Shown: in pieces, positions 33,346 through 63,700 of the stretch
Position numbering within the stretch: position 1 is the first letter of the stretch
Layout of the letters: each line of letters starts with the position of its first letter
Assembly: GCA_958296125.1 (NCBI GenBank)
Contig: OY282444.1
Span: forward strand, 62,001 to 126,000
Direction: 5' to 3'
Length of the DNA: 64,000 bases
From: an uncultured Poribacteria bacterium
Lineage (GTDB): Bacteria; Poribacteria; WGA-4E; PCPOR2b
The notes under the pieces: model-generated
What the model was told of the DNA's origin: nothing
The model's input: only the letters and a program-made list of their open reading frames with translations
Database searches by the model: none
Position numbers and translations under genes: made by a program

Positions 33346-33422
33346 GGTCAGGTGCTTTACATTTTATGTGTCAATGTTTGCTCGTAGATAGTCGGCGATG
33401 TATTGACAGTAATTCTCACAAG

Positions 33423-33460
33423 CCCAATGTTTTCCTGGTCTCGGAACGGACAACATTGGG
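33423..33460. repeat. Hairpin with the 18-bp motif in its loop
   Basis: A perfect 9-bp stem CCCAATGTT (33423-33431) / AACATTGGG (33452-33460) encloses a full CCTGGTCTCGGAACGGAC motif (33434-33451). The stem bases CCCAAT/ATTGGG and the following GTCAA resemble the right-end hairpin of the adjacent tnpB element, so this may be a further element end or the outermost left end. Confidence 0.5.
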
Positions 33461-33518
33461 TCAAAATGCGTGATTTTCTCTTGTAGTAAGGATGTGTTAC
33501 AATATGATTATCTTTCAG

Positions 33519-33550
33519 TGGGAGCCCCTATCGAGCGATAGGGGCTCCCA
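33519..33550. repeat. Perfect hairpin at the left of the tnpB element
   Basis: TGGGAGCCCCTATCG and its exact reverse complement are separated by AG, a 15-bp stem. No U-run follows, so it is not a standard terminator. It lies 39 bp before the tnpB ATG and probably belongs to the element's left end or to control of tnpB. Confidence 0.7.
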
Positions 33551-33589
33551 TACCCTGTAAGATGGGCATGAAAGTTGAAAGAGACTCCC

Positions 33590-34792
33590 ATGTTAAAAAC
33601 ACACAAAATCGCATTAGACCCGAATAACAAGCAAGCGACCCAGTTTGCCCAGCATTGCGGTTACGCTCGGGTCGCCTACAATCATGCCTTAGCCGACTTC
33701 AAAACAGGGGTCGATGAAAATGTCTGGCGTTCGCATATAGAGCTTTGTCGCCGTTTCAATGCCATCAAGTATGATACATACGATTGGTGTCAAGCCATGT
33801 CTCAGAACGCCTCCAAGAATGCGATTTACACGAATCTTAACGATGCGGTCTCCCGATGGAAGTCAGGTCAAAACCGATTCCCTAAGTTTAAGAAACGGTC
33901 TCATAGGAAGAGTTATCAAGCAGATAGTGGTCGAGGCTCAATCAAAGTTGTAGGCAAGCGAATTCAACTCCCGAAAATCGGCGAGGTTCGTATGTTTGAA
34001 ACCCTACGCTACCCCGGCATTATCTGCAAGGTTGTTATTTCTAAGCAAGGGCATCGGTGGTTTGCGTCTGTTACCGTTGAGACATCCGTTGATGAGCCAG
34101 ACCCGAGGGGCAAACCTGTTGTCGGTGTAGACGTAGGCATTAAACATCTGGCTGTCACTTCGGAAGGACAGTATTTTGAGAATCCGAAGGCGTTGCGTCG
34201 GTATGAACGCAAGTTGAAGCGTCTCCAGCGTCAATTGAGCCGCAAGGTTAAAGGCAGTCGTAACTGGTATAAACTCAAGAACAAGATATCCAAACTGCAT
34301 TATCGGATAGTCTGCATTCGCAACGAGGCCCATCATAAGGCAACGACTGCTATTGTCAAAGGTGCCAGTCGTATCGGCATAGAATCGTTAAACGTTGCGG
34401 GTATGCTAAAGAATCATAAACTTGCTAAAGCATTATCCGACGCTTCGTTATCTGGTTTCCTTGAGATGCTGAGATATAAGGCAGAGGCTGCCGCTGTTAA
34501 AGTGGTCGAGGCAGACAGATTCTATCCATCAAGTAAAACTTGTTCTGCCTGTGGTGTAGTAGATAGTGATTTATCCTTATCTGATAGGACGTATAATTGT
34601 AGTGCTTGCGGGCATACACAAGACCGAGACCTGAACGCTGCAATAAACTTGAGAAATGTCGCGGTAGGGCATACCGAGACGCAAAACGCCTGTGGAGATT
34701 CTGTAAGACCCCAGCAGTTGGGGCACGAATCGTTGAGACAGGAAGATAGCATAGCAATAAGTGATCAACTATTGCTGTTTAGTCTATCATAG
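33590..34792 (+). CDS. tnpB: RNA-guided endonuclease TnpB
   Basis: A 400-residue TnpB/OrfB protein, the IS605 nuclease family ancestral to Cas12. All key residues are present: the helix-turn-helix-like N-terminus, the split RuvC site Asp181 (GVDVGIKHL), Glu265 (IGIESLNV) and Asp347 (DRDLNAAIN), and a zinc ribbon with Cys318, 321, 337 and 340. It should use an omega-RNA from the element's right end to cut DNA next to a short TAM, which helps keep the element in place. ATG 33590 matches the family N-terminus (MLKTHKIAL); a TTG five codons upstream is less likely. No tnpA is adjacent. Confidence 0.93.
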   Translation: MLKTHKIALDPNNKQATQFAQHCGYARVAYNHALADFKTGVDENVWRSHIELCRRFNAIKYDTYDWCQAMSQNASKNAIYTNLNDAVSRWKSGQNRFPKFKKRSHRKSYQADSGRGSIKVVGKRIQLPKIGEVRMFETLRYPGIICKVVISKQGHRWFASVTVETSVDEPDPRGKPVVGVDVGIKHLAVTSEGQYFENPKALRRYERKLKRLQRQLSRKVKGSRNWYKLKNKISKLHYRIVCIRNEAHHKATTAIVKGASRIGIESLNVAGMLKNHKLAKALSDASLSGFLEMLRYKAEAAAVKVVEADRFYPSSKTCSACGVVDSDLSLSDRTYNCSACGHTQDRDLNAAINLRNVAVGHTETQNACGDSVRPQQLGHESLRQEDSIAISDQLLLFSLS

Positions 34793-34794
34793 GA

Positions 34795-34825
34795 ATCCCA
34801 ATGCTTTAGCGTTGGGAGTAGTCAA
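34795..34825 (+). repeat. Right-end hairpin of the tnpB element
   Basis: TCCCAATGC and GCGTTGGGA pair (one G-T wobble) around a TTTA loop, then AGTAGTCAA follows. It begins just after the tnpB stop. Read on the other strand it supplies the last codons and the stop of the hepT gene. Confidence 0.65.
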
Positions 34826-35210
34826 TAAATGTCTCAAAATCGGTAACGCACCTTTGTAGGAATTGATAGATTAACTCATCGTCAACCGTCATATACCGAT
34901 GCACAATCACGCTTCTTAGCCCTGACATACCAGCCAGCTCCTGTGCAAAATCTTGAGGGAGGATGCTGTGTCTACCGAGTCCGAGTATTGCAGATCTGCT
35001 GTCCGACGGTTGTTCCAAGTCGCCACCGATAAGCAGATGATTCGCAATGTCAATCAAGCACTGAATCGCCGTTTGCAGCGCATAACGAATCATGGATTGA
35101 TAATTGCGGTCTGCTGCCTCATCACAGCTCAACTGCTGATAGGTGCGGAGATCTTCGGTATATTCCGAAACCGTGTGTAACAAGGCTTGGACAGTTTGTA
35201 GATCAATCAT
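34806..35210 (-). CDS. hepT: HepT-like HEPN-domain toxin
   Basis: A 134-residue HEPN ribonuclease-type toxin of the HepT/MntA (type VII) toxin-antitoxin family. The catalytic motif R-x4-H-x-Y is present and complete: Arg99, His104, Tyr106 (RSVIVHRY). The tyrosine is the residue AMPylated by MntA in studied systems. The ATG at 35208-35210 is 2 nt after the mntA stop; an in-frame start 22 codons earlier would overlap mntA and is less likely. The last five or six codons and the stop (…DYSQR) lie in the right end of the tnpB element, so the native C-terminus was replaced on insertion. Length stays close to normal. Confidence 0.85.
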   Translation of the reverse strand: MIDLQTVQALLHTVSEYTEDLRTYQQLSCDEAADRNYQSMIRYALQTAIQCLIDIANHLLIGGDLEQPSDSRSAILGLGRHSILPQDFAQELAGMSGLRSVIVHRYMTVDDELIYQFLQRCVTDFETFIDYSQR

Positions 35211-35212
35211 AC

Positions 35213-35650
35213 TTAATCGGGATCGTTTCGGGAGTTTTGGGATTTGGCTTGCTGTCTTTTGAGATAGTATTGCCATTGTAGGTCACGCAAAGGTTGGGTA
35301 TCGGCATAACGATTGAATGTGTCAATATAGAATGAAACATACCGCTGATCCGGGTCGTAGATGACCACACCGTGACGCACGACTTGAAAAGTTAGCAGCG
35401 GTGAGGCGTTGTTCAGCAGTGCAACATCGATTGCGTCCCGTTGGAAAATGCCAATGAGTTCGCTATTGAGATCTACCACCCGTTGACCGTATTCTACCTG
35501 TGGAATCCGATCGGATAACAAAACAGCGATGTCGATATCAGATTCACGGTGTGTGGTGCCTTTTGCCTCTGATCCAAAAAGATAGGCGAGGACAACATCG
35601 CTCGCATCAAAGAGAGATGTCAACTGTGGCTTGTATTGGTTAATATTCAC
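35213..35650 (-). CDS. mntA: MntA-like nucleotidyltransferase antitoxin
   Basis: A 145-residue minimal nucleotidyltransferase. The signature G-S-x-A-x-G-x(n)-S-D-x-D is clear: GSEAKG at 26-31 and SDIDIAVLL at 37-45, with catalytic aspartates 38 and 40. In type VII systems MntA neutralises HepT by transferring AMP groups to its tyrosine. The start is GTG 35650 with aagga about 8 nt upstream. It is the first gene of the pair, antitoxin before toxin, with a 2-nt gap. Confidence 0.88.
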   Translation of the reverse strand: MNINQYKPQLTSLFDASDVVLAYLFGSEAKGTTHRESDIDIAVLLSDRIPQVEYGQRVVDLNSELIGIFQRDAIDVALLNNASPLLTFQVVRHGVVIYDPDQRYVSFYIDTFNRYADTQPLRDLQWQYYLKRQQAKSQNSRNDPD

Positions 35651-35764
35651 AGGGTTGTTCCTTGTAGGACTTACGCAGTTAAACGCTCAAAGCCAACTCC
35701 CTTGCCCCCAATCCCTCTGAAATATAATAACACATCCAATAGCAAACTGGCAAATGAACAACTA

Positions 35765-60755: not shown

Positions 60756-63700
60756 TCACTTGATTATCGCAATTTTGCCAATCTTTTTCAGATTTTCAAA
60801 TTCCATCACATAGATATAAATTCCGCTTGTTACCTCCGTTGCGACATGATTGAGAAGCAACCACTCCTTACGACCGGAATCGGAGGCAGCGACAGTCAAT
60901 CTGTCAAGCCGTTCTCCATTCGTATTATAAATCTCAACTGTTGTGCCAGTAGGAAGGCGATCAAACGTGATAGCGCTCTTGTGAAACTCGCGGGGGCGAA
61001 CGGGATTTGGATAGGCTCTCGCTTTTGAAAAATCCTTAAAATCGGCGAAATCGGTTTCAGGAAGCACGTCAAACGTCTGAGTTGTCTCTAGCAGGTTTAT
61101 AGGATTCCGATCCGTATCTCGCACGTCCGAAACGGTAATTTCATAGGTGCGTCCGGGAACCAAATCTGCTGCTCGGAAAGTGAGGATGGCTCGCGTTCCC
61201 ATCCGATCCCGAATGACAGACACAGGATTAGTGCCAGCGAGTTGCTTGGGTTCCCGTAATAGATAGAGGCGTGGATTACCCGCGGAAGGCCCCATCTGTT
61301 TGTCATAAGTAACGGCGACTTGGTTGTATTGGATGTATACCGCAGCAATCAATTTGGGCGGGGTGCGGGGGGTGACGGAGACCGGTTCGGATTGAGCTGA
61401 TTCAACCCCAGCTTCATCCTTCGCGGAGACGGTGTACCAGTAGGTTACATCCTTCGTCACTTTCCGGTCAAGGAAGCCCACAAAATCCAAGTCCTTAGCA
61501 ATCATCTCAAAGTCGGAGGGGGCTGCATCTGGGCCACCAGTTGCTCGATAGACAGTATAAGATACCGCCTCCTCTGGTGTCTCCCAATCGATCCGAACTG
61601 CACGGACACTGATCGGCGTTGCGGATAACTCATACGGCTGGATGTTTACAACACTGTTTGGATTACTAGCACGGACGTGCGCGAATGTAAGCAGGTTCTC
61701 TTCATTGTTTAAATAGAGTTCGCTGAAGTTGTCCTGATTCAGATCGGCGAGGAATAGCCGCGGCGTGTCCCAAGTTTCGTGATGCCAGATTGGGACGAGG
61801 TTTGACGGGGCATCCATCCATTTGAACACATAAACGCTTGGATTCGCAAGTATCACCAGTTCATTCTGCAAGTCGCCATCAACATCGCCGATTGCGACAC
61901 TATTTCCTTTCAAACGGAACGGTGTAATTTCCTGTGACCATATTAATTGGTAGCGCGAGACACCCCCCCCCCCGGTTTGGGAGGGGGTGCCAGCAGGCGG
62001 GAAAGCGGTGAATACATGATATTTCCAACGCGGCAGCCTTGAAGGCAAATCTGGCTCCAATACCGTTCCGCCCACGACAAACTCAGGAATGCCATCCCCG
62101 GTGAGGTCGCCTGCCGCAAGCTGATGGGCATCCTTGATATCAAGTTTCATGCGCCATGTTTCAACTAGCAGATTGTCTCCAACGGATTCGTAGATGAAGA
62201 GTTCGCCCTCACTGTCTCCCACCATTAACTCCGGGCTCCCATTTCCATCGAAATCGCCGATTGCGAATTGTTCTCCGAAAACGTTGGAGCCTTCCGTCTC
62301 ATTCTTGATGACGAGCACCTCCTCATAGCTATCGTTCCCGCGGTTTTCAAAAATACGGATATTGTCGTTAAAATTGTCTGCCCCGACAATCTCTTTTCGG
62401 CCGTCGTTGTCCAGATCCACAATCTGCCCTGATGAGAGAAAAGGCGTTTCCCAAATAACCTTTCCCGGATAGCCGTTTTGCGTCATACTTTCGACAAGGA
62501 AGACCCGTTCTCTCGTGCCGGACAGAATCTCCAACAATCCATCACCGTCAGTATCGTCAACCGCCAACGGCTTAGAGTCAATAGTCCCAGTATGTTGAAG
62601 CTGATAAATACCAGCCGCACTCCGTTCATGGACTTCGATTCCTGAAATAGAGTCGCCGGTGATCGGAAGTCCGACAATTTCGAGACGACTGTTCCGGTTG
62701 AAATCTGCAGCGACGCTGCCCAAGTGCATGGGAGGGAGTGTGGTCAAGGTCTCAACAAATCCGTTTGGTGAGATAGATTCGCTGATAACCTCCGCACGAT
62801 AGAATTTTCCACCATTGTCGTCGACTGTTTCCAATCCTACATCGTTACGAGAGGTGACGAATAAATCGTAACTCCCTGTATTAAGCGAGAGTGAAAAGAA
62901 ATGTTCCCGGCTCGCGGAGTTTTCCTTAATTGGTGTGAACGGGGCAAGGGCTTCACGGGCCCGTTGACTCAATGTGTTGATTGTGAAATCATCCGTTGAC
63001 CAAGAGACGACGGTGGCAAAGTTGCCCTTTGTAATCTGATTGTGCACCTTGACATTTCGCACTTGAGGCGGCGTTCTGTCCACGGAGACGACCACTTCAT
63101 CACGCAAAACTTTTCCCTCTACGCTACTGACTTCGAGGCGAACGGTGTAAATGCCTTCTGCTACAACAGACGTTTCCCAAACGATTAGGGTTTCATTTGC
63201 CTTCTGTTGCCGAGAGGGCGCATTGATAGGTTGAAACGCTGTTGGGACTGCCGACTGCCCATAAAGTAACTGCCATGTGTCAAATTTAAATCCGCCAGCG
63301 GTGCCAACAATCTCGATCTGGTTTGAGCCGCCACTGTGAGTTTCTGGTGAAAGAATGTGTGCTTGTAAGGAACCGCTTGCCATCAAAGCTCGTGCTGCGT
63401 TCAGATTTCCTGCACCGACAAGTTCCGGGCTTTCCGTAATTGGGTCGGCGGTCGAGAGCAAAATCTGCCGGACCTCCTCATGCCTCAGGCTTGGACGCTT
63501 CGACATAATCAGAGCGGCAACTCCAGATACATGCGCCGTTGCCATTGATGTGCCAGAGAGGGGACGGTAGCGGTTATTGATATGTGTACTTAAAATGACA
63601 TTGCCCGGTGCACCGATGTCAATAGATGCGCCAAAGTTGGATTGATAAAACTTCTGCTTGTGTTGCTCGGTTGCAGCAACAGAGATGACCTTGCGATAAC

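Follow-up and report, generated by a model that had tools for sequence, protein, structure and literature searches.

What becomes of a toxin when a transposon inserted antisense to its gene closes the reading frame, which of its residues then come from the host and which from the element, and would such a toxin still work with its antitoxin? This question is raised by a hepT–mntA pair of Candidatus Poribacteria, located in the window analysed here, a stretch of 64,000 bases that runs from base 62001 to base 126000 of the genome (G000), a single contig of 5.16 Mb. It is very probable that an ordinary tnpB-only insertion sequence, inserted beside TTGAC, has swapped the tail of hepT in a type VII toxin–antitoxin pair, and that the toxin is possibly attenuated by an Asn-to-Ser change. 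Truncation or extension of genes by insertion sequences is already a well-known process. Neither a prior report of such a case nor a paper on Poribacteria and TnpB was found in the literature searched, outside which most subscription journals lay, so that the absence is unproven.

Boundaries, copies and machinery of the element

The element is of the tnpB-only IS200/IS605 type, often named IS1341-type, and occupies 1,418 bases of the forward strand (33408 to 34825), as delimited by copies in the same genome and by the uninterrupted site in three relatives. From 54 matches in G000, ten long copies, counting that of the window, and numerous fragments were recognised. Right ends were located by pattern search at 16 sites in this genome (none with the reversed control), and all of them are alike through GTCAA, after which the aligned flanks diverge, placing the end at 34825. 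The left end was placed from the same copies at 33408, after the transposon-adjacent motif (TAM) TTGAC (33403 to 33407, forward strand); among the eight copies whose left ends were read, the motif is TTGAC in five, ATGAC in two and CTGAC in one, followed by AG(T/A)AATTC. Within the element, a strong palindrome (GGGAGCCCCTATCGAGCGATAGGGGCTCCC, 33520 to 33549) is found just upstream of tnpB. A left end at about 33496, at a TTAC upstream of this palindrome, was dropped, since the copies in G000 place it at 33408.

Three genomes of the same genus, recorded publicly as Candidatus Poribacteria (G004, G002 and G001; PYIZ01000044.1, JAJECO010000069.1 and JAJEAL010000098.1, respectively), carry the hepT–mntA pair without the element, and a pattern search for the right end of this element family found none in them. 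The host side of the junction (34826 to 35700) is 88, 87 and 86% identical to G002, G004 and G001, respectively, across the first 838 of its 875 bases. From these uninterrupted sites and from the native end of hepT that persists on the far side of the element, it follows that no target bases were duplicated or lost. The element thus has the terminal hairpin and lacks a target duplication, as is usual for IS200/IS605 elements with tnpB. No evidence against the insertion itself was found; the insertion, its boundaries, the exchanged and the displaced tail, and the empty sites in relatives are all read directly from the DNA, and the insertion and the tail exchange can be regarded as secure. Elsewhere in the genome, an isolated right-end piece (L087 / L011, G000:C1:4272728-4272839) is 99% identical to the window's end over 112 bases and is probably a deletion derivative; a LamG paralog lies at a distance of about 1.1 kb.

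The tnpB gene (33590 to 34792, forward strand, ATG at 33590) encodes 400 residues and scores 277.6 bits against NF040570 (cut-off 100), remaining below the narrower IS200 model NF038281 (307.8 of 425). An alignment with the TnpB of ISDra2 (8bf8) over residues 6-386 shows that D191 is retained, as are the remaining acidic positions of RuvC; D191A in ISDra2 TnpB is reported to block cutting (PMC8612924). The right-end hairpin (34796 to 34817, forward strand) has nine stem pairs according to the comparison of the 16 copies, eight of them formed in every copy and one in 15, and three of the pairs are altered on both sides in six or seven copies. All 16 share a two-helix fold, consisting of this hairpin and a longer helix preceding it. 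RAGATH-18 was not accepted as the family of the putative omega-RNA, since the Rfam match of 25.5 bits falls short of the gathering score (44.9).

No Y1-like frame (tnpA) was found among the frames of at least 50 residues inside 33408-34825, and the only two Y1 matches in G000 (G000:C1:355745-356098 and 4411522-4411848), one an IS200-type tnpA (130.5 bits, cut-off 55) and the other a REP-type transposase, are both far from the element. Close to the IS200-type tnpA, a stretch of 23 bases is similar to the right-end hairpin (91%, with E 0.004 for that locus), which hints weakly that this tnpA serves the tnpB-only element in trans. The REP-associated tyrosine transposase (L062, G000:C1:4411522-4411848) sits amid many GGGAGAGGCATCCCTGCCTCGAC-like repeat copies.

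The exchanged end of hepT

The hepT frame is read on the reverse strand from 35210, and its host part (34826 to 35210) matches the NCBIfam model NF047751 with 97.1 bits (cut-off 60) as well as PF01934 and is 81-87% identical to the three orthologs. The frame continues to a stop at 34806 to 34808, in and next to the hairpin loop, and the protein ends in ...FETF-IDYSQR. The I codon (34824 to 34826) straddles the junction, with two bases from the element and one from the host, and, since the right end is fixed at 34825, the codons of D, Y, S, Q and R (34809 to 34823) and the stop, that is, 34806 to 34823, are element DNA. The first-pass annotation had attributed DYSQR and the stop to the right-end hairpin. 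The origin in the element holds, all 16 right ends in the genome agreeing on 34825 rather than on a boundary mapped elsewhere, but the hairpin contains only S, Q, R and the stop, D and Y being encoded in the eight bases between it and the end.

To the left of the element, the reverse strand at 33364 to 33405 encodes QYIADYLRANIDT and a stop, which aligns with the 3' ends of the three orthologs and represents the displaced native end of hepT. The native proteins of these orthologs end in SQHIVxYL... (FETFSQHIVAYLQENCR, FETFSQHIVDYLRENC and FETFSQHIVVYLQANVGK), and the uninterrupted frames of G002, G004 and G001 continue to SQHIVDYLRENC, SQHIVAYLQENCR and SQHIVVYLQANVGK, respectively. Empty-site relatives had been proposed for comparison, and all three have C-termini different from that of the window; moreover, none of the 29 other HepT homologs read, out of 46 other matches listed, ends in DYSQR, an outcome in favour of the first-pass annotation. 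In exchange for the split-codon residue and 13 others, HepT has gained six new ones.

State of the HepT–MntA pair

The antitoxin gene mntA (35213 to 35650, reverse strand) has a GTG start, is located upstream of hepT, two bases before it, and scores 89.3 bits against NF047752 (cut-off 60). MntA has the same length and start as in the three orthologs and keeps the GSX10DXD motif as GSEAKGTTHRESDID, in line with the claim that the antitoxin is intact. The match of HepT to NF047751 stops at residue 128, where the model itself ends, and does not reach the exchanged tail. PADLOC gave no match for HepT and matched MntA to candidate systems only; no HepT was found in viral contigs, and plasmid relatives are distant (24-32% among 20 of the 40 records listed). 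Just upstream of mntA, at 35665 to 35700, there is a short repeat (GTAGGACTTACGCAG...) with many recurrences across the six searched genomes of the genus.

The R-x4-H-x-Y motif of HepT had also been called intact, which is correct for the pattern and misleading for the residue that follows the Arg. The motif reads RSVIVHRY (34893 to 34916, reverse strand, with numbering from the start codon, 35210), and its Ser100 is encoded by AGC at 34911 to 34913, whereas the three orthologs have AAC and read RNVIVHRY. Asn follows the motif Arg in 29 of the 29 other HepT homologs read, Ser being present in the window only. In a second set, which overlaps the first and comprises 21 family matches above the cut-off from nine genomes, Asn is found in 20 and the one Ser is that of the window; L109, among the 20 Asn carriers, has Gln instead of the motif His. 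This Asn is outside the published definition of the motif and its replacement does not bar membership of type VII, a class further characterised by RNase toxicity that AMP transfer neutralises. Moreover, as Ser is still polar, the wider HEPN rule that a polar residue typically follows the Arg is unbroken.

In the HepT of Shewanella, a mutant changed at positions 98 and 104 was non-toxic and Y104A was still toxic, from which its authors reasoned that Asn98 matters for toxicity; Ser at position 98 may not have been among the changes tested (PMC4621449). A survey of HEPN domains reports that a polar residue after the Arg seems helpful to catalysis in the KEN domain too (PMC3710099). For a Legionella HEPN protein, the authors argue against an active site made up of Arg and His (PMC11586414), and the weight of the Asn-to-Ser change may therefore vary by family.

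With regard to the tail, the HepT of Shewanella, a proven toxin of 133 residues, has also been studied with C-terminal tags (His6) (PMC7641770), and its similarity to the window protein extends as far as residue 129 ('...DFEQFIDV'), four residues from its end. Because a working HepT stops at nearly the same residue, the short tail alone is probably tolerated and would not be disabling. Speaking against full function, structure models gave a mean pLDDT of 73.0 for the window HepT and 86.4 for the G002 HepT with its native tail, both being weak models from the same four sequences; the last helix ends at 133 in the former and at 140 in the latter, and the first ten structure matches of the window model include the HEPN toxins 7ae6, 6m6u, 7ae9 and 5yep.

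The dN/dS values against the three orthologs are 0.08, 0.13 and 0.11 for hepT and 0.12, 0.16 and 0.17 for mntA. Codon changes found only in the window comprise eight synonymous and three non-synonymous ones in hepT, much like other lineages, and seven synonymous and five non-synonymous ones in mntA. As far as the sequences tell, such low dN/dS is no sign of decay; since the insertion cannot be dated, the values may mostly predate it and cannot prove current selection.

The chances are close to even that the pair is decaying, the Asn-to-Ser change having inactivated the toxin first and made the 3' end of hepT a harmless landing place. The uniqueness of Ser100 in both sets of homologs, a one-residue deletion in HepT relative to the three orthologs and the loss of the native tail would all fit such a course, but no frameshift or early stop is present in hepT or mntA, the window-only changes in hepT resemble those of other lineages, and the order of the substitution and the insertion cannot be told. 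A pair functional as it is, in which HepT with its new tail would be a working RNase checked by MntA and the insertion would be neutral, is a serious possibility that stays short of an even chance. It agrees with the open frame, the family scores over their cut-offs, the GSx10DxD of the antitoxin, the low dN/dS and the activity of the 133-residue Shewanella HepT, which lacks the longer tail and of which a form with His6 at its C-terminus has been examined (PMC7641770). It has to contend with the Ser at the position of the invariant Asn and with the loss of toxicity of Shewanella HepT upon the double change at 98 and 104, which Y104A alone did not cause (PMC4621449). The earlier statement that the pair may still work is thus somewhat less likely than first claimed, on account of the Ser. 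Among a working, an attenuated and a decaying pair, the attenuated one is slightly favoured: the Asn-to-Ser change in the active-site motif may have attenuated a toxin that would still be produced and retain residual toxicity.

Guide, donor end and known systems

By analogy with ISDra2, the omega-RNA is predicted to carry a 16-base guide (34826 to 34841, forward strand), antisense to the last native codons of hepT. The ISDra2 guide consists of about 16 flank bases, and its TnpB has been suggested to cleave the donor site once empty (PMC8612924); a preprint describes this donor-site action of TnpB as gene drive on plasmids (PMC11870625). A guide of hepT sequence is therefore expected, as in the first-pass prediction of one from about 34826. 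In a search of six genomes, G001, G002 and G004 each contain TTGAC plus the guide sequence with a single mismatch. Two weaker matches with three mismatches occur elsewhere in G004 and G001, the sole match in G000 is the junction itself with three mismatches, and no match was found in G003 and G005. The element would make an omega-RNA with this guide and send TnpB to the uninterrupted site, as ISDra2 does. A guide matching hepT is not special to this toxin, any TnpB element matching its own flank.

Regulation of hepT by the element, in which toxin output would be lowered by read-through or by the omega-RNA guide pairing antisense with the 3' end of the mRNA, is very unlikely; the guide strand is opposite hepT by position, but the same geometry occurs in any antisense insertion, and this one is present in one genome only. 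Yet more improbable is an entanglement of the element with the pair, in which precise excision would restore a longer HepT of perhaps greater toxicity, while exactly this uninterrupted allele would be the target cut by guided TnpB; were it true, cells losing the element would be penalised twice and a weakened toxin would be fixed together with the transposon.

Returning to the ordinary insertion with tail exchange, the right end has donated the same tail a second time. Opposite-strand frames of at least 60 codons enter the element at four of the 16 right ends, hepT being one of them. At another copy (L081 / L002, G000:C1:2138703), the IDYSQR tail is on a LamG-like protein, so labelled from reading of the sequence rather than from a profile search, whose relatives end in LATTWAILKQTR or LATTWAILKQSR; the other two frames are putative genes at most. 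Over 20 right ends (16 in G000 and four in G005 and G003), all opposite-strand frames close within 13 codons: the first at once, the second as xDxSQx or shorter and the third as LT.P...L, each in 20 of 20. Since all of them close early, the right end is a general stop donor, and hepT takes IDYSQR and the stop from the element because no opposite-strand frame stays open through that end. We infer that ordinary single-strand transposition brought the element, antisense to hepT, to a position beside the TTGAC that lies across the gene's 3' end; target bases were neither duplicated nor lost, and the native tail is stranded past the left end of the element. That DYSQR is native to HepT, with the element boundary elsewhere, can practically be dismissed. 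The distant homolog L035 reads FIDYIQ here, and a native IDY could thus arise by chance, but such similarity was discarded as the source of the tail: the 16 right ends have one common boundary, the three orthologs have SQHIV at that position and an unrelated protein ends in the same hexapeptide.

The locus shows cleanly, in nature, how a TnpB element rewrites the end of a host protein: three relatives lack the interruption, and the displaced tail has stayed in place. The same donor end gives one hexapeptide to two unrelated proteins. It is also a natural test of the need of HepT for its C-terminal tail and for the motif Asn.

Compared with known systems, the pair is like the type VII pair SO_3166/SO_3165 of Shewanella oneidensis in having MntA upstream of HepT and in the RX4HXY and GSX10DXD motifs, with a HepT of 134 residues versus 133, whereas it differs in the transposon-derived last residues and stop and in the Ser after the motif Arg, which is Asn in Shewanella. 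The element, in turn, is like ISDra2 in the RuvC acidic residues of TnpB, the TTGA-type TAM, the right-end hairpin, the insertion without target duplication and the guide position at the right flank. However, its TAM is TTGAC, in contrast to the TTGAT of ISDra2, and, unlike ISDra2, it has no internal tnpA, sits in a toxin gene and donates the last codons of that gene.
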